Shown here in pieces: positions 1 to 35,085 of a stretch of DNA of 64,000 nt. The position numbers were made by a program, and so were the translations under genes. Source of the stretch: Embleya scabrispora (GTDB lineage Bacteria > Actinomycetota > Actinomycetes > Streptomycetales > Streptomycetaceae); assembly GCF_002024165.1 (NCBI RefSeq), contig NZ_MWQN01000001.1, positions 3,079,365 to 3,143,364 on the forward strand. Direction: 5' to 3'. Each line of letters opens with the position of its first letter. The stretch's first letter is position 1. The notes below the pieces were generated by a model. It saw nothing but the letters and a program-made list of their open reading frames with translations. It did not search any database and was not told where the DNA came from.

Positions 1-1085
1 CCGACCGGGGCCAGGCCGCGCGGCCCGAACCCGCTCGCTTTGGCCGCGTGCGCTTCCATGACGAGCGCACACCCGGCGGTTACCCGGGCCTCGGTGAGCG
101 CGATCGTCACTTTCCGCGCGTGCTCTTCGCTGTTCGGATCGCCGGCGTGGAGCTGGTAGATCGGGCCGATCACCAGGAGGTCGGGCATGACGTCCTCGAC
201 GCGCCGCATGAGCCAGGCCCGGCCGTCGGCGCGGGTGAGGTCGACACCCTCGGGTCGGCAGTGGATGTGCAACTGGCCGCGCTTCACGGGCTGGTGGATG
301 GCCGAGGCGGTGTTCATCAGGCCGCGGTACCGCCGACGGGACTGGGCCTCGGAGTTCTCGCAGTCCAACACGAGCACCCGCTTCGGGCCGAGCACGTTCG
401 GCTCCCGGCCGAACGGGAGGACACCGGCCGCCGCAGTGACGGCGAGCTGCCGCAGCAGCACCGACTTGCCGCCGCCCTCGCCCGCCGTCCAGATGACGCG
501 GTCGCCGCGCTCGAGATAGCCGGGCAGCACCCAGTCCGGCTCGTCGTCGGCGACCGACAGGAAATCGTGGATGTCCTGCGTCGGCGTGTCCTGGGCTGCC
601 CGGCCTCGGTCACGAACGGCGCGGGTCAGGGCGACCGCACGTTCGGCCAGGTCGTCCGATCGGCCCGCGGTGCCGTAGCCGTCCTGGGTGATCGCGATGC
701 CGGCCTGGACGATTGCCCGCCGCAGGGCCAGGGCCCGGGTGCGGCGGATGTACCAGTCGACCTCGGCGGCGGGCGGCGGCGCGGCGGTCAGGGTGTGGAT
801 GTACGGGGCGCCGCCGGCGCGGGTCAGGTCGCCGACGGCCTGGAGTTCGGCCACGACGGTGTGCGCGTTGATCGACTCGCCCTGGTCGGCGAGCCGTTGC
901 ATTGCGCGCAGGACGGTTTCGTGGGCGGCGCGGTACAGGTCGCTGGGCTGGACGGTGCGGAGTACGTCTCGGGCGGCCTGGCGGTAGATCAGGCAGCAGC
1001 CGAGTAGGGCCTGCTCGGCCTCGATGTCGTGCGGTTCCATCCGGTCGACGGACGTGATCTCGGGCTGGTAGTCCTCGGGGTCCAT
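1..1085 (-). CDS. DnaB-like replicative helicase of the integrated element (partial, runs off left edge)
   Basis: The gene continues beyond the left edge; 361 residues are visible. Residues about 17-120 resemble the DnaB N-terminal domain (EAEQALLGCCL at 22-32). Residues 185-350 resemble a RecA-fold/AAA_25 ATPase, with Walker A AGEGGGKS at 201-208, a Walker B-like strand LLVIGPIY at 303-310 and EAHAAK at 344-349. The ATG at 1085 overlaps the TGA of the upstream initiator gene (TGATG), so the two are probably translationally coupled. By analogy with phage O/P-type modules it would be the helicase loaded by that initiator at the element's origin. Function is inferred from domain order; the missing C-terminus prevents a firmer call. 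Confidence 0.8.
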   Translation of the reverse strand, partial: MDPEDYQPEITSVDRMEPHDIEAEQALLGCCLIYRQAARDVLRTVQPSDLYRAAHETVLRAMQRLADQGESINAHTVVAELQAVGDLTRAGGAPYIHTLTAAPPPAAEVDWYIRRTRALALRRAIVQAGIAITQDGYGTAGRSDDLAERAVALTRAVRDRGRAAQDTPTQDIHDFLSVADDEPDWVLPGYLERGDRVIWTAGEGGGKSVLLRQLAVTAAAGVLPFGREPNVLGPKRVLVLDCENSEAQSRRRYRGLMNTASAIHQPVKRGQLHIHCRPEGVDLTRADGRAWLMRRVEDVMPDLLVIGPIYQLHAGDPNSEEHARKVTIALTEARVTAGCALVMEAHAAKASGFGPRGLAPV

Positions 1086-2080
1086 CAGAACACTCCGTTG
1101 TCGGCATAGGTCTGGTGTGCGGGCTGGCGGGCCGCCGTGCGGGCGGCCTCGGCCGCGGCGCGGTCCCGCTGCTCGACGGCCTTGAGCCGGAGCTGGTCGT
1201 ACTTCTCGCGGAGCTTGGGCATCGACAGGACGTTGGCGCGCCAGAACGAATCGGCCTGGCACCAGTCGATGGCGGCGAGCACCTGGGCGACGGTGCGGCC
1301 GTCCTTGTCGAGGAGGAGTCGGGCTTCGGTGCGCCACCGGGCGGTGATCGTTGGCCGCCTGCTGCCGTTCTCGGCGATGCGGTCGGCCAGGTGTCGGCAG
1401 ATCTGTTCGACGTCGTCGCGGCTCTCCTGGGGGGCGGCCGTGGCCGCCTCCGACGAAGAGGATGGTTCTACTGGTGGTTCATTGATGGTTCGGGGGGCGT
1501 TACGCCCGTGACATTCGGGCGTAACGCCCGTGACGTGCGGGCGTTGCGCCCGTGACGGAGGCTGTTCGGGCGTAACGCCCGTGACCGTCACGGACTCTGC
1601 GCCCGTGACGGTCACGGGCGTTACGCCTGTGACGGTCATGCCGTCCGGGTTGGTTACGGGCGCAACGCCTGTGACGGTCACGGGCGTTACGCCCGTGACA
1701 CGATTTGCCCGTGACCGCCGCTGCCGCTCGGCAGCAGCAGCACGATCGCGCTCCCGCAGCGCAACCAGGTCGGCCCAGTCCGTTGCCGGCCGCCGCTGCG
1801 AGAGGTCGAGGTCGTACACGACACAGCCGTCCGCCGTAGTGCCGGTGGGCCTGATCAGCCCGGCCGACTCCAGCCGGCGCAGGGCACGCCGTACGGTCGT
1901 CGGGTCGTACCCGGTGCGGTACTGGATGCGGGTTCCCGACGGGCGGGCGCCCCGTCCGTCGCGATCGGCGTGCTCGGCCAGGACCGCGAGGACGAACCTC
2001 GCGGTCGCGTCCGGCTTGTGGGCGTCGGTCCACACCGTTGGTGCGTCGTCCATTGCCCAGGCCACCGCCTCGTAGCTCAC
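1085..2080 (-). CDS. winged-HTH replication initiator (lambda O-like) with internal repeat region
   Basis: 331 residues from a GTG start. Residues about 20-80 form a winged-helix domain (DPTTVRRALRRLESAGLIRP) of the kind seen in phage replication initiators. Residues 128-189 are a low-complexity VTGVTPVT repeat encoded by the DNA repeats at 1494-1715. Residues 220-305 form a second conserved block (WRANVLSMPKLREKYDQLR), typical of the C-terminal domain of phage replisome organisers. The gene lies directly before the DnaB-like helicase. Known logic: lambda-type O proteins bind iterons inside their own gene and recruit the helicase. The role here is inferred from that layout. Met10 (2053) is an alternative start. 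Confidence 0.75.
   Translation of the reverse strand: MSYEAVAWAMDDAPTVWTDAHKPDATARFVLAVLAEHADRDGRGARPSGTRIQYRTGYDPTTVRRALRRLESAGLIRPTGTTADGCVVYDLDLSQRRPATDWADLVALRERDRAAAAERQRRSRANRVTGVTPVTVTGVAPVTNPDGMTVTGVTPVTVTGAESVTVTGVTPEQPPSRAQRPHVTGVTPECHGRNAPRTINEPPVEPSSSSEAATAAPQESRDDVEQICRHLADRIAENGSRRPTITARWRTEARLLLDKDGRTVAQVLAAIDWCQADSFWRANVLSMPKLREKYDQLRLKAVEQRDRAAAEAARTAARQPAHQTYADNGVF
1494..1715. repeat. iteron-like array inside the initiator gene; candidate element replication origin
   Basis: Six full 19-bp copies of CGGGCGTWACGCCCGTGAC or close variants lie at 1516-1534, 1538-1556, 1567-1585, 1615-1633, 1657-1675 and 1681-1699. A seventh, slightly shortened copy ends at 1512, and degenerate half copies end at 1609 and 1715. 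Most copies have an internal GGGCGTWACGCCC palindrome, and the last extends to a perfect 23-bp palindrome at 1677-1699. Copies at 1615-1633 and 1657-1675 share the variant GCCTGTGAC. Position and spacing resemble initiator-binding iterons within an O-type gene; origin function is inference. Confidence 0.65.
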
Positions 2081-2159: not shown

Positions 2160-3794
2160 CTAGTCGGTGATGACGATCGAGCCGTCGTGCACCCAGTCGA
2201 GGGCGGCGCAGTCGAGCGCGTGGCGGGCCCGCGTGACGGAGACGTACGCCAGGCGGGCGTACTCGCGGCGAAGGACCCGCAGCCCGGTGGACGGGTCCGG
2301 CCGCGGCGGGGTGAAGTCGCCGTGCAGCACGACGCGCGACCACTCCCGGCCCTTCGCCTTGTGCGCCGTCGACACCACCAGGTCCGCGCGCTGCTCGGTC
2401 ACCAGCGCCTCGGCGGCGGCGATCATCGCCTCCGCGCCGAAGTCGTCGATGAGCTTGACCAGGACGCGCAGCGACCCGGCTTCCTCCGCCGCGTACTCCT
2501 GGAGCTGGGCCCAGTTCGTGAACCCCATGAGGTCGGGGTGATCGGTCGGCTTGCCGTCGAGCAGGTCGAGCGCCGCGTATGCCAGGCTCTTGATCGCTCC
2601 GCCGCCGCCGACCAGGGCGACCCGCCGACCGGCGGCCAGGGCCTCGATCACGACGCCGACGGCGCCCGCGTTCGTGCGGCACAGGATCGCGTCGGCCCGG
2701 TCGACCGGGCCCACGACCGAGGCGGTCGGCTCGTGTCCGACCAGCCGCAGGGGAGCCGAGATCAGGTTGAGCCACACGTTCGCCTGCTCGGCAACGGCGA
2801 CGCCGAAGCGGAACGACTGGCTCAGCGTCAGCGTGTCGCCGGGGAACTTCGCGAGGGCATCGTTCGCGCCGCGCCATGCGTAGATGGCCTGCGCGCTGTC
2901 GCCGACCGCGATGCGCTGCGCGTGGTCCTGGTCCAGCAGCACCGAGGTCAAGACGTCGTTCGTATCCTGCGCTTCGTCGAGCAGCACGACGTCCGCCGCC
3001 AGCCTGGGGCGGCCGAGCGCCCACGCCTTCATGTAGTGGTCGTGCTCCATCCGCAGCACGCCGTCCGGTTGCATCAGGTCGGCCCAGGCCGCGCGGGCAA
3101 CAGGCAGCCCGAGCCGGGCGATTGCCGTCCGGGTGTCCGGCCGGGTCAGGTTGTCCACGCGCGGGATGTGCGCGGCCGTGATCTCCGGATCGGCCGAGTA
3201 GCACCAGCGCTTGACCGTGTCGAGCGCGAACCGCATGACCTTCTTGCTCGTCATCGCCACGACGCGGGCATCGTCGGCCATCACGGCCTCGGTACTGCGG
3301 CCGTCCTCGCCGAGGTCGCGGGCCAGGATCTCGCGGACACCGAGCGCCTGGGCGGCGACGTGCGCGGTCTGGTACGGGATGCCCAGGCGGGCCTGGTGCC
3401 GGGGGTCGTACGCGAGCGAATGCCCGGTCTTGCAGGTCGCGTTCGACGGGAACGACTTCGCGGCGTCCACGGCAATCGGCTTGTTGTAGGCGATGTACAG
3501 CATGCGGGCGCGGCGGTCGGATCGGGCGACCTCCTTCAAGGTGGTTGACTTGCCGCAGCCAGCGCCGGCCTGCACGGTGAGGTCGATCCCGTCGCCGTAG
3601 GCGGCGATCACCTCGGCCTGCTCGGGCGTGGGGTCCATTCGGGCGGCCTCCCTGGCGGCGGCGGTTCGGGCGAGGCGGGCGACGGGCGAGTGGTCGCGGC
3701 AGCGGTAGCCGTCCATGTATGGCTGCGCGCCGGCACCACACGGCCCGGCTGGCGTGCCCCAGGTGCAGGTGCGGGCGGCGGTCGCGGTGCTCAT
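2160..3794 (-). CDS. UvrD/Rep-type superfamily 1 DNA helicase
   Basis: 544 residues. Visible SF1A motifs are Walker A AGAGCGKST at 77-85, DEAQD at 273-277, GDSAQAIYAWRGA at 298-310, QSFRF at 326-330, VSTAHKAKGREW at 474-485 and YVSVTRAR at 517-524. Residues 1-35 contain Cys10, Cys19 and Cys32 with a following His, possibly a small metal site. An ATP-driven DNA unwinding role in element replication or recombination is inferred from these motifs and the neighbours. The ATG at 3794 overlaps the stop of the upstream gene by four bases (ATGA), which decides this start over one 17 codons upstream. Confidence 0.85.
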   Translation of the reverse strand: MSTATAARTCTWGTPAGPCGAGAQPYMDGYRCRDHSPVARLARTAAAREAARMDPTPEQAEVIAAYGDGIDLTVQAGAGCGKSTTLKEVARSDRRARMLYIAYNKPIAVDAAKSFPSNATCKTGHSLAYDPRHQARLGIPYQTAHVAAQALGVREILARDLGEDGRSTEAVMADDARVVAMTSKKVMRFALDTVKRWCYSADPEITAAHIPRVDNLTRPDTRTAIARLGLPVARAAWADLMQPDGVLRMEHDHYMKAWALGRPRLAADVVLLDEAQDTNDVLTSVLLDQDHAQRIAVGDSAQAIYAWRGANDALAKFPGDTLTLSQSFRFGVAVAEQANVWLNLISAPLRLVGHEPTASVVGPVDRADAILCRTNAGAVGVVIEALAAGRRVALVGGGGAIKSLAYAALDLLDGKPTDHPDLMGFTNWAQLQEYAAEEAGSLRVLVKLIDDFGAEAMIAAAEALVTEQRADLVVSTAHKAKGREWSRVVLHGDFTPPRPDPSTGLRVLRREYARLAYVSVTRARHALDCAALDWVHDGSIVITD

Positions 3795-4222
3795 GCCGCC
3801 GCCCTGGAGTGCCAGCGGCAGGCCGAGCCGAGGCAGCCCTGGCATGCGGCCGGCCTGGCGCCGGTCGCGGTCCGGGCTCGCTGCACGGTGCGCGTGACCA
3901 CGCGCAGCAGCTCGGCGACCTGCTCGGCGGACAGGCCCTCGCGAACCGTCAGGACGTGCACGGCCGCGCGCCGTTCGGCGGGCGTCATGTCCGCCAGCGG
4001 GTCACCGGCGACGGCCCGGTCGACGGCCGCCTGGTCGACGTCGTCGGCCGGCCGCCGGGTCGGCCGCGGCCGCGGCCGGGTGGCCCGGACCCGCGCGCGG
4101 TAGGCGCGCATCCGCTCGTTGTGGCACGGCCGGCAGTAGTAGCCGCGCTGGTCGGGCCGGCTGCGGTCGCGGTGGAACGCGTCGAGCGGCAGCAGCTGGC
4201 GGCAGGTGGTGCACGTTCTCAT
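3791..4222 (-). CDS. zinc-finger plus HTH small protein of the element
   Basis: 143 residues. The N-terminus holds two Cys pairs (CTTC at 4-7, CRPC at 30-33) followed by a basic stretch, as in HNH-like or zinc-ribbon proteins. Residues about 78-120 (LTVREGLSAEQVAELLRVVTRTVQRAR) look like a sigma-70 region 4/HTH segment. The C-terminus has further cysteines (CQGCLGSAC). It has the composition of a small phage-type DNA-binding or endonuclease-like protein, but no catalytic HNH triad can be assigned. It is coupled by ATGA overlaps to both neighbours. Function unknown. Confidence 0.65.
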   Translation of the reverse strand: MRTCTTCRQLLPLDAFHRDRSRPDQRGYYCRPCHNERMRAYRARVRATRPRPRPTRRPADDVDQAAVDRAVAGDPLADMTPAERRAAVHVLTVREGLSAEQVAELLRVVTRTVQRARTATGARPAACQGCLGSACRWHSRAAA

Positions 4223-4805: not shown

Positions 4806-5008
4806 GGGTGTACCTCCCGGCAGGTCCAGCAGCGCCAGCCGCCGCGGGTGTGGGTGCCGAGCCGGCGGGTGCCCCGGCAGGTCGGGCACTGCTGGGTGGT
4901 CTCGGCGGGCGGGGCCGCGATCCGGTGCGCGCGGCCGTCGGCGGTGGTGGGGGCCGGGCAGGCCGGGACGATGCTGCCCCGACCCGCCACCACCACGGTC
5001 GCCGTCAC
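4796..5008 (-). CDS. small zinc-ribbon protein
   Basis: 70 residues. The GTG at 5008 overlaps the stop of the upstream ATPase gene (GTGA), which sets the start. The C-terminal half has CPTC and CWTC pairs 18 residues apart, with basic and glycine residues between, a typical zinc-ribbon arrangement. Such tiny proteins are common in actinobacterial phages and integrative elements; no specific role can be assigned. Confidence 0.5.
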   Translation of the reverse strand: MTATVVVAGRGSIVPACPAPTTADGRAHRIAAPPAETTQQCPTCRGTRRLGTHTRGGWRCWTCREVHPWT

Positions 5009-6558
5009 GCCGCCTGCGACGTCGCCGCCGCGTCCGCGTACCGGCCGAGCGTCGGTTCCCACGTGGGTTCGGGCTGCCCCTGGAGGGCGGACAGGGCCTC
5101 GATCACGGTCCCGGCCTCGGCCAGCGACAAGTCCTTCATGGTCGCCAGCGGATTGGCCGCCCGGCCGAGGATGCCGGTCACGATGGCCAGCCTGCGCGGC
5201 CGGTCACCCGCGATGCCGAGCGCGCCCAGGATCGTTGCGATCGCCGTGCACTGCGCGGGTGTTGCGCGCCGGGTGTCCTGCTGCGTGCCCCATTCGCCAG
5301 GCGGCGGCACCTGGCCGGCGGCGGGCGCCGACTCCTGCGCCGGCTGCGGCCGGGCGCCCGCGAGGTCGCCGAGCCGGCCGTCGATCATCCGGTGCAGCGG
5401 GATCGTGCCGCCGTCGCGGGTCTCCACGTCGCGTTCGAGCAGGCCCTGATCGGTGGCGGTCTGCCGGCACGCGGCCAACGACACGTGATCGTTCCACCCG
5501 ACCTTGATCGCGTCGAGCAGGATCGGCAACTGGTCGGCGGGCGGTGCCGGTGCGGCGGCGGCCTGCTCGGGCACGCGCTCCGGCGCCGCCTCGGTGTGCT
5601 GCTCGCGCTCCGGCTGCCGCACCGGGTCGGCCGACGGCGGTGGAGACGATGGCGCCTGTGCCGCCGCGCGAACCTGGTGCCCGCGCTCGACGATCACCGC
5701 GCCGAGCGTCGTCGGTACACCGGTCACCGGGTGCAGCACCGCCGACCCGACGAGCTGACGGCGGGTCACCTCGGCGTGCAGCTCGCGCAGCCCCTCCCAC
5801 GTGGCGTCGGCGGCCGCCGCCCGGTCCAGGTACGTTGCCGGGTCGACGACCTCGACGCCGTCGTTCAGCCAGTCGAGCATGGTCAGCGCCAACGATGTGT
5901 CCGGCCGGTTGATCACCGCTCCGTTCAGCGCCGGGCACCTGGTCTTGCCGACGACCAACGTGTTCTCCAGGTCCATGCTGGCGACCAGGTCGAACTCGTA
6001 TTCCAGGCCCTCGCGTTGCTCGGCCTTGGTCCCGACCTTCTTCGGCTCGGGCTTGCCGTTCTTGTTGGTGCCGATGACCCACTCGGACTTGACCCGCATC
6101 GTCACGATGACGTGCCCGGGGTAGGCCACCAGGGCATCGATCATGTCGCGCTCGTACGGCCGGGCTTCCTTCCAGCCGCCGAACCCGCCTCCGCTGCCCT
6201 TGCGTTGGCCGATGGCGTCGACGAGTTCGAGCATGCCGCCCTTGCCCATCCAGAAGTGGGAGAGCGAGTCGACGACGACGCATCCGTACCCGGCAGATCC
6301 GGCGGTTGCGAGTGCGCCGATCAGGTCGCGCGGGTCGTAGGTGGTCATCTGCAAGGTGTCGAAGTCGAAGCCGTCGCCGCTGCTGCCGCGGGCGTACTTG
6401 CTGGCGGAGCCGCGCTCGGTGTCGATGACCGCGACCCGGGGCGACAACGCGCCGGCCAGGGTCAGGGCCGTGAAGGTCTTGCCCGCGCCCGACGGGCCTT
6501 CCAGCGCGATGCGCGCCTTCGACTTCTCGCGGGTTGCGGGCGTGAACTCGAACGTCAT
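5005..6558 (-). CDS. RecA-fold AAA ATPase (AAA_24 / Sak4-like) of the element
   Basis: 517 residues. Walker A GPSGAGKT at 21-28 follows the opening MTFEFTPATREKSKARIALE, and a Walker B strand GCVVVDSLSHFW lies at 92-103. Residues 1-230 are the ATPase core. Residues 290-390 are low-complexity and rich in Ala, Pro and Gln, and the C-terminus (about 440-500) is helical. The core resembles phage nucleotide-binding proteins of the AAA_24 family, some of which are Sak4-like single-strand annealing or recombination ATPases. It is placed among replication genes, with GAGGAG upstream of the ATG and four-base overlaps at both ends. The recombination role is inference. Confidence 0.75.
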   Translation of the reverse strand: MTFEFTPATREKSKARIALEGPSGAGKTFTALTLAGALSPRVAVIDTERGSASKYARGSSGDGFDFDTLQMTTYDPRDLIGALATAGSAGYGCVVVDSLSHFWMGKGGMLELVDAIGQRKGSGGGFGGWKEARPYERDMIDALVAYPGHVIVTMRVKSEWVIGTNKNGKPEPKKVGTKAEQREGLEYEFDLVASMDLENTLVVGKTRCPALNGAVINRPDTSLALTMLDWLNDGVEVVDPATYLDRAAAADATWEGLRELHAEVTRRQLVGSAVLHPVTGVPTTLGAVIVERGHQVRAAAQAPSSPPPSADPVRQPEREQHTEAAPERVPEQAAAAPAPPADQLPILLDAIKVGWNDHVSLAACRQTATDQGLLERDVETRDGGTIPLHRMIDGRLGDLAGARPQPAQESAPAAGQVPPPGEWGTQQDTRRATPAQCTAIATILGALGIAGDRPRRLAIVTGILGRAANPLATMKDLSLAEAGTVIEALSALQGQPEPTWEPTLGRYADAAATSQAA

Positions 6559-6929
6559 CGGTTGCTCTCCTCGGCGTTGGCCTGGGTGCGGGTGGTGCGG
6601 ACGTGGTGTGCGGCCTGCTCGGCGTCGAGGAGCAGGCCGACGGTCGGGCACGGCCACGGCACGCGCCCGTAGGCGTACGAGCAGTGCCGGCAGAACAGGC
6701 GCCCGTCGGTGCCCTCGTCCCACTCGTGCAGCCCGACGACGGCGGCGACCTGTCCGGCGAGCCGGTCGTGCTCGGCCAGCACCTCGATGCGGGCGTTGTG
6801 GTGCTCGACGGCCTGAACAAACAGGCCGTGCTCGACGGCGTCGGTGAACTGACCGAAGACGTGGCGGCCGCGCTCGGTGAACGTCATGGCGCGGACCACC
6901 GCGAGGCGGCTGGCGGACATGGGTTTCAT
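6555..6929 (-). CDS. hypothetical element protein
   Basis: 124 residues, family not recognised. It starts at the ATG at 6929, which has GGGGAG six bases upstream and overlaps the preceding stop by four bases. Residues 25-75 are probably helical and histidine-rich. A CRHC pair near residue 80 and a further cysteine (VPWPC) may bind metal. It ends in an ATGA overlap with the ATPase gene. Confidence 0.55.
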   Translation of the reverse strand: MKPMSASRLAVVRAMTFTERGRHVFGQFTDAVEHGLFVQAVEHHNARIEVLAEHDRLAGQVAAVVGLHEWDEGTDGRLFCRHCSYAYGRVPWPCPTVGLLLDAEQAAHHVRTTRTQANAEESNR

Positions 6930-10187: not shown

Positions 10188-10233
10188 CAGGCCGTTGTTA
10201 CTGGAAAGATACCTACCTGGATCAGGGGGAGTA

Positions 10234-11544
10234 ATGGCGCGTCAGTCCGGCCGATCCTCGAATGGGAGATCGAGTATCTACCTCGGCGAGGACGGCCGGT
10301 GGCACGGCTGGGTGACGATGGGCGTCAAGGACGACGGCAGCCCAGACCGGAGGCACCGAACAGGTAAGACCGAGACCATCGTGACGGACAAGGTTCGCGC
10401 GCTAGAGAAGCAGCGCGACGCTGGCCAGGTGACCAAGACCGGCAAGCCGCTGACCGTCGAAGCGTGGATGATCCTGTGGCTCACGACGATCGCCCCACGC
10501 TCCGTCGAGCAGTCGACCCTCGACAGCACGTACCGCCCGAAGGTCATGAACTGGATTGTGCCGCGACTGGGGCGGCATCGGCTCGACCGACTACAACCCG
10601 AGCACTTGGACGCGTTCTATCTCTGGCTCCGCAACGAGCAGGGGTTGTCCAAGAACACCATCGTGCAGATCCACCGCATCCTCTCGCGTGCCCTCAAGAT
10701 GGCCGTGGTCCGCGGCAAGGTCGGCCGGAACGTAGCCACACTCGTTGAAGCCCCGTCGGGCGAAGAAGTCGAGATGGCGCCGCTTGCCCAAGAGGAGGCG
10801 CGGCGGGTGCTCCAGCTCGCCGATAGTCGCCGAAACGGCGCCCGGTGGTCCGTCGGCCTCGCCCTCGGCCTGCGGCAGTGCGAGACGCTTGGGATGCGGT
10901 GGGAGTACATCGACCTCGACGCGCGCAAGATGCACGTCTGGTGGCAGATCAAGCGCACCAGGTTCAGCCACGGGTGCACCGACCCGCGGACATGCGGTAC
11001 TCGCTACCACCGCGCTGGGTGCGCAGCCGACTGCGCGAAGCACACAAAGTGCCCGCCGGCCTGCCCGCCGGAGTGCGTGGCCCATGCTCGCGAATGTCCG
11101 GACCGCAAGGGTGGCGGCTGGCACTTCGCGCGACGTAAGGGCAAGGGCAAGCGCGGTGGCAACCTGACCTTGACCCTCCCGCCCGCGCTCGTACAGCGAC
11201 TACGAACGCATCGGGCTTCCCAGGCCCGCGAGCAGCTGGCCGCCGGTGACCGATGGACCGACATGGACTTGGTGTTCGCCGGCACCACCGGTCAGCCGAT
11301 CGAGCCCCATGCCGACTGGGTCGAATGGCGAGACCTGTTGATCGAGGCCGGCATCGATCACGTGCGCGTGCACGATGGCCGGCACACCGCGGCCACGCTA
11401 CTCGTCGAGCAAGGCGCGACCGCCGAGATCGTCCAGGAAGTACTCGGCCTCTCGTCGATCACGATTGCTCGCCGCTACATGCACATCTCGTCCACGCTCG
11501 CGGCCAAGGCAACGGATAGCGTCGGTACAGCCCTCTGGGGGTAA
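10234..11544 (+). CDS. int: tyrosine-type site-specific integrase
   Basis: 436 residues. An N-terminal DNA-binding part and SAM-like domain (about 70-170) precede a catalytic domain with Arg214 (GLRQ), the His380-x-x-Arg383-His384 box (HDGRH) and nucleophile Tyr415 (ARRYMHIS). Residues 248-288 are an unusual cysteine-rich insertion with eight Cys between the first Arg and the HxxR box. It integrates the element into the adjacent tRNA-Lys gene, whose 3' end lies 74 bp downstream. The ATG at 10234 follows AGGGGGAG closely and is preferred to the ATG at 10195. Confidence 0.93.
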   Translation: MARQSGRSSNGRSSIYLGEDGRWHGWVTMGVKDDGSPDRRHRTGKTETIVTDKVRALEKQRDAGQVTKTGKPLTVEAWMILWLTTIAPRSVEQSTLDSTYRPKVMNWIVPRLGRHRLDRLQPEHLDAFYLWLRNEQGLSKNTIVQIHRILSRALKMAVVRGKVGRNVATLVEAPSGEEVEMAPLAQEEARRVLQLADSRRNGARWSVGLALGLRQCETLGMRWEYIDLDARKMHVWWQIKRTRFSHGCTDPRTCGTRYHRAGCAADCAKHTKCPPACPPECVAHARECPDRKGGGWHFARRKGKGKRGGNLTLTLPPALVQRLRTHRASQAREQLAAGDRWTDMDLVFAGTTGQPIEPHADWVEWRDLLIEAGIDHVRVHDGRHTAATLLVEQGATAEIVQEVLGLSSITIARRYMHISSTLAAKATDSVGTALWG

Positions 11545-11612: not shown

Positions 11613-11617
11613 GAGGG

Positions 11618-11665
11618 TGGGCCGTCAGGGGATCGAACCCTGAACCCGCGGATTAAAAGTCCGCT
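11618..11665. other. candidate attachment site (element end) in the 3' half of tRNA-Lys
   Basis: The integrase gene ends just outside the tRNA 3' terminus, the usual place for a tRNA att core covering the T-arm and part of the anticodon arm. The second copy needed to fix the core lies outside the window, so the exact extent is a guess. Confidence 0.45.
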
Positions 11666-11690
11666 GCTCTGCCAATTGAGCTAACGGCCC
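11618..11690 (-). tRNA. tRNA-Lys (anticodon TTT)
   Basis: 73-nt cloverleaf on the - strand with GGGCCGT/ACGGCCC acceptor pairing, anticodon loop CTTTTAA (TTT), T-arm GGTTCGATCC and discriminator A. No CCA is encoded. It is the target of the integrated element; its 3' end faces the integrase gene. Confidence 0.96.
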
Positions 11691-32742: not shown

Positions 32743-35085
32743 TTACACGTCACGCTTCCAACGCGGCTTGCGGTCGCCCGCACCACCGGCCGGACGGTCG
32801 TAGTGCCCGTCCCGACGCGGCGCGCGATCGTGCGAACGCTCGCCCGGGCCCGAGCCGTACGACGGACGGTCGCCGTAGGACGGCCGGTCGCTGCCATAGG
32901 TCGGCCGGTCGCCACGCGGGGCGCGGTCGCTGCCGTACGCGGGCCGGTCGGTGCGCGGCGCCCGGTCGCCGTACGACGGACGGTCGCCGCGGTAGCCACC
33001 CTCGCGCCGGTCGCCACCGCCGTAGGACGGACGCTCACCGGTACGCGGCGCGCGGTCCCCGTACGAGGGACGGTCACCACGCGGGGCGCGGTCGCCGTAG
33101 GACGGACGGTCACCACCTCGCGCGGAACGGTCGCCGCCGTACGACGGACGGTCGTTGTACGCGGGCCGGTCGCCACGGGGGCCCCGGTCACTCTGCGGAC
33201 GGTCGCCGCGGTAGCCGCCCTCACGCCGGTCGCCGCCGCCGTAGGAGGGACGGTCACCGGTACGCGGGCCCCGGTCGCCATAGGACGGACGGTCGCCACG
33301 CGGCGCACTCCCACGACGGTCGCCGCCGCGGTCGCCGTACGACGGACGGTCGCCGCGGTCACCGCGGTAGCCACCCTCGCGCCGGTCCCCACGGTCCCCA
33401 CGGTCGCCCCGGTCCCCGCGGTCGCGGTCCGGGCGCTCGTAGCGCTCGGTGCGCATCGGGACGTCGCCGTTCTTGGCCGCCTCGGCCAGCTCGGCCGCCT
33501 TGCGGCGCAGCTCGGCGGCCTCGGCCTTGAGCTCGACGATGCGAAGCGCGAGCCGCTCCGCCTCGGCCTCGGCCTCGACCGCGGCGTCCGCCACGGACTG
33601 CGCCTTGACCTCGGACAGCGTGCGCGCGCCGGTCAGCTTGCGCATCTCCGGGTCGTTGGAGCCCTGCACCCGAAGGCGGGTCGGCTCGACGCCGGCGTCC
33701 TCCATCAGGCGGTCCACCGTGCGGCGCTGGTGCGGCAGCGCGAGGGTGACCACCGCACCGGCCTCGCCGGCGCGCGCGGTACGACCCGCGCGGTGCAGGT
33801 AGTCCTTCGAGTCGGCGGCCGGGTCCACGTGCAGGACCAGGTCGATGCCGTCGACGTGGATGCCGCGGGCGGCGACGTCGGTGGCGACCAGGACCGGCGT
33901 GCGGCCCTCCTTGTACTCGGCCAGGGTGCGGGTACGCGCGCCCTGGGTCATGCCGCCGTGCAGCGCCTCGGCGCGGACACCGGCCTCGCGCAGCTGCTGC
34001 GCGACGCGGTCGGCGCCGAACTTGGTCCGCACGAAGATCATCGTGCGCCCGCGACGGGCCGCGATGGCCGCCGTGACGTACGTCTTGTCCTTCGGCTGCA
34101 CCACGAGCACGTGGTGCGACATGGTGGTGACCGAGGACGCGTGCGGGTCCACCGAGTGGGTGACCGGGTTGACCAGGTACTTGCGGACGATCGCGTCCAC
34201 GCCCTTGTCCAGCGTGGCGGAGAACAACATCCGCTGACCGCCGGCCGGGATCAGGTCGAGCAGCGCGGTCACCTCGGGCAGGAAGCCCATGTCCGCCATC
34301 TGGTCGGCCTCGTCGAGGATGGTGATCTCGACGTTGTCCAGCACGGCCGAACCGCGGTCGACCAGGTCCTGGAGCCGACCCGGGGTGGCCACCAGGATCT
34401 CGACGCCGCGTTCGAGCGCGAAGATCTGCTTCGGCATCGACATGCCGCCGGTGACGGTCTTCATCCGCAGGTCGAGGATGCGACCGTACGGCTCGAGCGC
34501 GTCGTGCACCTGCATCGCGAGCTCACGCGTCGGGGTGAGGATCAGCGCGAGGGGGCGCCGGGCGCGGGCCTTGCGGCCGGAGAGCCGGGTGAGCATCGGC
34601 AGGCCGAAGCCCAGCGTCTTGCCGGAGCCGGTACGACCGCGGCCGAGGATGTCCTTGCCGGCCATCGCGTCCGGCAGCGTCGCGGCCTGGATCGGGAACG
34701 GGTGGGTCACGCCGCGGCGCGCGAGCGCCTCCACGACGTCCTTGTGCAGACCGAACTCGGCGAAGCTGGGGCCGGTCGGCTCGGGCTTCTCATCGGCCTC
34801 GGTCTCGGCCTCGTCCGAAGCCTCGATCCGCTCGTCGGCCTCTTCGTCGTTCTCGACGCCCGCCTCGGCGTCGGTGTCGGTGTCGGTGTCCTCGTCGGCG
34901 TCCGCCGCGGACACGGTGTCGTCGTCGTTCGCGACGACCTCGTCGGCAATCTCGATGGCGATCTCGGTGATCTCCGAAGCGACCTCGGTCACCTCGGCTG
35001 CCTGCGCATCCGCCACACCCTCCTGCACCTCGGCACCTTCGGTACCGGGCATGGGCGTAGCAGTGTCATTGGCATAGGGGGGCAT
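32743..35085 (-). CDS. DEAD-box RNA helicase with long repetitive basic tail
   Basis: 780 residues. An acidic low-complexity N-terminus (1-105) precedes the core: Q-motif region from Phe108, GRTGSGKT 150-157, PTRELA, TPGRL, DEAD 258-261, SAT 289-291 and HRAGRTARAG. A helical segment follows (about 505-545), then some 230 residues built of repeated GDRPSYGD/RREGGYRGDR units, disordered and RNA-binding in type. It unwinds RNA, probably in ribosome assembly or cold adaptation, as RhlE/DeaD-like enzymes do. GGAAGG lies seven bases before the ATG. Monocistronic with its own terminator. Confidence 0.93.
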   Translation of the reverse strand: MPPYANDTATPMPGTEGAEVQEGVADAQAAEVTEVASEITEIAIEIADEVVANDDDTVSAADADEDTDTDTDAEAGVENDEEADERIEASDEAETEADEKPEPTGPSFAEFGLHKDVVEALARRGVTHPFPIQAATLPDAMAGKDILGRGRTGSGKTLGFGLPMLTRLSGRKARARRPLALILTPTRELAMQVHDALEPYGRILDLRMKTVTGGMSMPKQIFALERGVEILVATPGRLQDLVDRGSAVLDNVEITILDEADQMADMGFLPEVTALLDLIPAGGQRMLFSATLDKGVDAIVRKYLVNPVTHSVDPHASSVTTMSHHVLVVQPKDKTYVTAAIAARRGRTMIFVRTKFGADRVAQQLREAGVRAEALHGGMTQGARTRTLAEYKEGRTPVLVATDVAARGIHVDGIDLVLHVDPAADSKDYLHRAGRTARAGEAGAVVTLALPHQRRTVDRLMEDAGVEPTRLRVQGSNDPEMRKLTGARTLSEVKAQSVADAAVEAEAEAERLALRIVELKAEAAELRRKAAELAEAAKNGDVPMRTERYERPDRDRGDRGDRGDRGDRREGGYRGDRGDRPSYGDRGGDRRGSAPRGDRPSYGDRGPRTGDRPSYGGGDRREGGYRGDRPQSDRGPRGDRPAYNDRPSYGGDRSARGGDRPSYGDRAPRGDRPSYGDRAPRTGERPSYGGGDRREGGYRGDRPSYGDRAPRTDRPAYGSDRAPRGDRPTYGSDRPSYGDRPSYGSGPGERSHDRAPRRDGHYDRPAGGAGDRKPRWKRDV

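Follow-up and report, generated by a model that had tools for sequence, protein, structure and literature searches.

A putative phage replication origin inside its own initiator gene in Embleya scabrispora: dyad repeats that follow the winged-helix domain

The stretch of DNA analysed here (the window, 64,000 nucleotides of the Embleya scabrispora contig NZ_MWQN01000001.1) begins inside an integrated element, the right end of which lies at a tRNA-Lys gene (11616-11690). The 45-bp repeat at this tRNA end recurs in an identical copy further left (Table 1), and the element thus spans 37,033 bp (about 37 kb), as measured between the two att repeats. Gene prediction and profile searches identify terminase, portal, head protease, tape measure and endolysin genes in it, along with repressor/regulator genes and an integrase. 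Judged by this gene content, the element is a temperate tailed phage integrated in the tRNA-Lys gene. A preliminary description had called it an actinobacterial tRNA-integrated element; the integration site and the att repeats agree with this, and the virion genes and integrase correct it to a temperate phage. Identity as an actinobacterial integrative conjugative element (AICE), a type of conjugative element without virion genes, is rejected on the presence of the five virion-related and lysis genes named above. The initiator encoded on the IMG/VR contig UViG_2857776322_000002 (34,912 bp) is identical to that of the window, and this contig probably represents the same prophage.

A UvrD-like helicase gene (PHROG 1967; 2160-3845, minus strand) lies just upstream of the initiator gene. 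Further along, an AAA_24 protein gene (5005-6567, minus strand) has a strong match to PHROG 1366, for which no function is stated, and a weak match to a Sak4-like annealing protein. Dense short tandem repeats with periods of 9-39 are found outside the prophage, at 32854-33425.

Table 1. Positions of the initiator, its repeats and associated prophage features (window coordinates unless a locus is named).
Feature	Position	Strand	Remarks
DnaB-like helicase gene	1..1085	-	DnaB N-terminal domain and AAA_25; continues beyond the left edge of the window
O-like replication initiator gene	1085..2080	-	331 aa; N-terminal winged helix, repeat-bearing linker, C-terminal lambda-O-like domain
C-terminal domain, presumed helicase-recruiting	1088..1435	-	common to initiators with other N-domains and other repeats
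Candidate unwinding element	1453..1492	-	40 bp; adjoins the last copy of the array, on the C-domain side
Iteron array	1490..1715	-	eight 23-bp dyads and one half copy, inside the initiator gene
Dyad copies 1-4	1490-1512, 1512-1534, 1534-1556, 1563-1585		core and one outer arm kept
Dyad copies 5-8	1587-1609, 1611-1633, 1653-1675, 1677-1699		both outer arms present
Half copy	1707-1715		GCCCGTGAC
Winged-helix DNA-binding domain (predicted)	1754..2080	-	residues 1-109; travels with the repeats
Tyrosine integrase of the prophage	10195..11544	+	Pfam PF00589, PHROG 1
Right att core	11615..11659	none	45 bp; overlaps the 3' end of tRNA-Lys
Left copy of att	L002:14627-14671		identical, 45 bp; about 37 kb leftward

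The N-terminal domain of the initiator carries a match to Pfam HTH_36 (residues 26-76) and is predicted by AlphaFold2 to form a winged helix (pLDDT 94.4). A Foldseek search with this model gave weak matches to solved winged-helix regulators, one of them with E ≤0.001. Among PHROG families, the best match is 22834 (residues 216-309), which has no stated function, and the second best is 391, "replication initiation O-like" (residues 1-323, E 4.3e-35). The C-domain profile hits lambda O over residues 212-275 (E 1.4e-15 in a search space of 38,880), and on this profile evidence the two domains are homologous. The corresponding N-domain profile gave no match to lambda O, and homology to lambda O is thus shown for the C-domain only. 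AlphaFold2 models the C-domain as all-helical (pLDDT 88.6); compared with solved structures, the model gave no Foldseek match with E below 4, and the profile gave no match to their sequences up to E 1.

The full form of the repeat is GTCACGGGCGTTACGCCCGTGAC, a 23-bp dyad with an odd centre (11-1-11) that is self-complementary at 22 of its 23 positions, as many as a sequence of odd length allows. According to the preliminary description, seven 19-bp copies and two half copies of a palindromic repeat lay in the middle of a winged-HTH initiator gene, directly followed by a DnaB-like helicase gene. The placement within the gene is correct, and so is the existence of palindromic repeats: at up to three mismatches on both strands, the 19-bp unit has ten matches against 0.98 expected, a number reached by none of 100 shuffles, and seven 21-nt copies at 1492-1699 are 81-100% identical to the reference copy. 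The unit and the count have to be revised, to 23 bp and to eight copies plus one half. Both outer arms are kept in the copy at 1653-1675 with a single mismatch. In the whole 37,033-bp element, GTCAC-N13-GTGAC occurs at four places when one mismatch is allowed and the exact inner core GGGCG-N3-CGCCC at five, every one of them in the array. All three reading frames are used: six of the eight copies lie in frame 0, and the other two frames have one copy apiece; the copies at 1490-1512 and 1534-1556 encode the unrelated peptides CHGRNAP and SRAQRPH. Several dyad-symmetric iterons in mid-gene are also what is seen in initiators of the lambda O and P22 gp18 type.

The helicase gene directly downstream was likewise described correctly, as it encodes a DnaB_N domain and AAA_25 and matches PHROG 19 (DnaB-like helicase). 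Within the window, the gene has no DnaB_C among its listed matches, and it possibly encodes an unusual phage replicative helicase.

Relatives were gathered separately for the N- and C-terminal parts of the initiator, from the best 80 loci of each of three scans; one of these, a pattern scan, gave at least 600 matches. Among phage records, 327 match the initiator, none of them over at least 80% of its length, and in the best 60 of the 327 the match lies in one of the two parts, N-terminal or C-terminal. After near-duplicates and short genes were dropped, the C-domain sample fell from 187 listed genes to 138, which include the window gene and lambda O. The N-domain sample went from 110 listed genes to 76, with 38 at 90 bits or more (rounded); 37 of these 38 were shuffle-tested, and 32 genes at 120 bits or more form a strict set. 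L021, L022 and L231 were removed from the strict set by hand, because they have only about 40-48% identity to the domain of the window or to the alignment query rows; all three lack the motif described below. A homologue of the window's helicase is found in 32 of the 138 loci with the C-domain and in 5 of 35 with the N-module, with a median of 2.4 kb of DNA available downstream. Of those 32, 28 could be placed on the strand of the initiator, and half of these (14/28) start within about 45 bp of its end.

Whether repeats of this kind exceed what the protein sequence imposes was assessed with synonymous-codon shuffles that keep the protein fixed (500 per gene), using a 6-mer and a dyad statistic. 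For the window gene, no shuffle reached either value (0/500). Among the C-domain initiators, 65/138 were reached by at most 5 of 500 shuffles in either test, as compared with 4/138 control ORFs, which were taken from the same loci, one per locus by codon-position GC, and some of which may be non-genes. The strict dyad test (0/500, at least two copies) was passed by 29/138 initiators and 0/138 controls. In 73 of the 138, an in-gene repeat is non-significant by these tests, and not every initiator with this C-domain need carry an in-gene origin. The tests also miss real cases, since lambda O passes the dyad test (0/500) and fails the 6-mer test (130/500). Taken singly, 23 of the 37 N-module genes pass and 14 do not. 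As the relatives are not independent of each other, the significance of these counts is overstated.

Codon usage points in the same direction. In 81 VT....VT peptides chosen by peptide alone, the first valine is encoded by GTC in 79 and the last by GTG in 78, while elsewhere in the same genes GTC accounts for 292 and GTG for 161 of 510 valines. With GTC first and GTG last, the symmetry of the dyad is written in synonymous codons, and this pattern is required by a DNA dyad and not by a peptide. Comparison among relatives shows that the repeat is constrained as DNA, with its symmetry kept. This upholds the earlier proposal that a constraint on DNA produces the VTGVTPVT protein repeat, an assessment with which the unrelated peptides of the other-frame copies also agree. 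Relatives that keep the protein repeat without the DNA repeat, named beforehand as contrary evidence, were not seen among the 81 peptides.

The preliminary description had further predicted that the repeats would differ in step with the DNA-binding domain of the initiator, and this is what we find. Two genes were counted as sharing a repeat when the top repeat (6-mer) of one is present in at least four copies in the other. Sharing climbs from 2% to 85% of pairs as N-domain identity increases: it is seen in 138/5675 pairs with no N-domain hit, 17/533 below 40% identity, 17/141 at 40-50%, 18/49 at 50-60%, 9/14 at 60-70% and 23/27 at 70% or more. When the N-domains have no hit or less than 40% identity, sharing across bins of C-domain identity ranges from 0/37 to 41/762 (5.4%, the maximum). 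There are counter-examples, the pairs L005/L007 and L157/L161, in which N-domain identity is at least 64% and the top 6-mer is not common to both, and pooling by broad N-domain cluster is uninformative for some clusters, one of 13 genes having a single significant member; the identity bins give a clearer picture. By this comparison, the repeat follows the winged-helix domain rather than the C-domain. Because the repeats are located between the two domains, linkage alone fails to explain why they follow the N-terminal one.

Within the strict set, the association becomes one with a particular motif. Among the matches listed, exact GTCAC-N13-GTGAC sites number two or more in 30 of the 32 genes and three or more in 25, whereas none of the 137 other initiators has two. 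Without the exclusions by hand, two or more exact sites are present in 30 of the 38 genes at 90 bits or more and in 0/38 below 90 bits. The spacing of the arms is fixed, with 87 sites at 13 and one site in total at all other spacings from 0 to 30. The two strict-set genes outside this count, L016 and L222, carry the symmetric variant GTAAC-N13-GTTAC, in which both arms have changed together. Apart from the window gene, none of the strict-set genes (31) matched the C-domain queries, and three that were profiled have other C-terminal families or none. Conversely, the C-module occurs with other N-domains and other dyads, for example GGTCG-N5-CGACC (L005), GTCCC-N7-GGGAC (L012) and GTAAC-N3-GTTAC (L044). 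These swaps suggest that the initiator protein and its origin are exchanged as a single unit.

Further dyads were seen in L029 (CGGAA-N6), L255 (GCAGT-N2) and L158 (GGTGC-N8), the N-domains of which have 41-47% identity to the nearest N-domain query; the specificity for a dyad may thus change somewhere around 45-55% N-domain identity. By eye, the Streptomyces phages Alderaan and Ididsumtinwong and pMLP1 have apparent CAGTGAG...CTCACTG dyads; singly these are non-significant, at 28, 48 and 32 of 500 shuffles for the 6-mer and 13, 38 and 150 of 500 for the dyad statistic, respectively.

No other 40 bp of the gene are richer in AT than the candidate unwinding element, though the enrichment is mild: 52.5% AT, where the gene as a whole has about 71% GC. 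In relatives, the AT-richest 40 bp start near the array end (within -20 to +120 of it) in 28/31 N-module genes, where 15% are expected, and in 26/47 significant C-module genes, where 14% are expected; here too the genes are related and not independent.

What else could the array be? Dyads are typical of operators, and the winged-helix protein might bind them to repress its own gene, without a role in replication; the fold search likens the predicted winged helix to transcription regulators of the CodY, Fur and MarR types (one match with E ≤0.001). However, the full dyads lie in mid-gene and nowhere else in the element at up to one mismatch, PHROG 391 spans residues 1-323 with a replication initiation annotation, and the C-domain is lambda-O-like, which makes this reading unlikely. 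Repeat arrays also mark centromere-like sites, so that a partition or packaging site has to be considered in place of an origin. Against this, no ParA/ParB-type gene was noticed by eye among the predicted genes, and the repeats change along with the DNA-binding domain of the initiator itself; we regard such a site as very improbable.

A VTGVTPVT linker kept for protein reasons, with the DNA repeat a by-product of recent duplication, would account for the 84 of 97 sites (at up to one mismatch, in 32 relatives) that lie in one frame. It would account neither for the other-frame copies, which encode unrelated peptides, nor for the opposite valine codons at the two ends of each dyad unit; synonymous shuffles fail to reproduce the repeat, and other N-domains have other DNA repeats. 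There is hardly any probability left for this explanation. On the points counted against each, we reject the operator-only, partition-site and protein-repeat-only readings.

We therefore favour, with a probability of about 0.88, the interpretation of the array as the replication origin of the temperate phage, located inside the gene of its own initiator. It would most likely be a well-supported additional case of a known design, the in-gene origin of the lambda/P22 type. The N-terminal winged helix would bind each 23-bp dyad, probably as a dimer; by analogy with lambda, the bound copies would then assemble into a compact complex and promote opening of the AT-richer stretch beside the array; and the lambda-O-like C-domain would recruit the DnaB-like helicase of the next gene, either directly or via a host loader.

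With somewhat less assurance, we lean towards a broader proposal, that in actinobacterial temperate phages the DNA-binding domain and its dyad array form an exchangeable cassette that has been recombined onto different helicase-recruiting C-domains. If true, there would be many mutually incompatible origin specificities, and since synonymous codons spell out the dyads, these specificities could be read directly from sequence. The comparison of relatives provides a means, based on sequence alone, of finding such origins and assigning each to its initiator, and it supplies natural domain swaps in which to follow the joint evolution of initiator and origin specificity. The in-gene origin design would also extend from enterobacterial phages to Actinomycetota.

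In open-licence full-text literature, which covers few subscription papers, neither this array nor a survey of iterons in actinobacterial phages was found, and PMC7157519 alone was found to place a likely origin within an actinophage initiator gene or next to it, in passages that report no repeats. Those passages concern extrachromosomal mycobacteriophages of the RepA type, and their authors suggest an origin just upstream of repA or inside it. RepA resembles the initiator described here in its N-terminal predicted HTH; it differs in that repA serves prophage maintenance and that these passages report no repeated motifs in the region that the authors examined (PMC7157519). The excerpts of PMC7145576 contain no close parallel. 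The Streptomyces phage TurkishDelight offers a nearer relative: its gp71 (NC_073473) has a winged helix with 62.7% identity and three exact GTCAC-N13-GTGAC dyads, but its C-terminal part has no match to the C-domain of the window initiator.

The preliminary description had likened the locus to the lambda O/P layout. The in-gene iterons and the O-like C-domain agree with this comparison. In the lambda record NC_001416, O has four annotated iterons, which prove to lie in three reading frames, and extracts of PMC7466680 describe mid-O iterons with a 19-bp imperfect inverted repeat and an AT-rich tract; the present initiator gene similarly has dyad iterons in its middle in three frames and a homologous C-domain, with eight copies as compared with four, and the stretch beside its array is mildly AT-richer. 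The N-domain here has no profile relation detectable with that of O, and whereas lambda O is followed directly by P, as in a strict O/P module, the next gene here is DnaB-like and not a P-type loader. According to parts of PMC8022706, lambda, P22 and L carry in-gene repeats that differ from one another, and P22 has a DnaB-type gene 12, as does L by homology. Compared by this description, the 18-12 region of P22 and L is like the present locus in having its own repeats in the initiator coding region, repeats that differ among relatives, and a DnaB-type helicase gene (PMC8022706). The present locus differs in belonging to an actinobacterial prophage, in its 23-bp GC-rich dyad and in the AAA_25 ATPase part of its helicase. 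Because the next gene is DnaB-like, P22 18/12 fits the layout better than lambda O/P.
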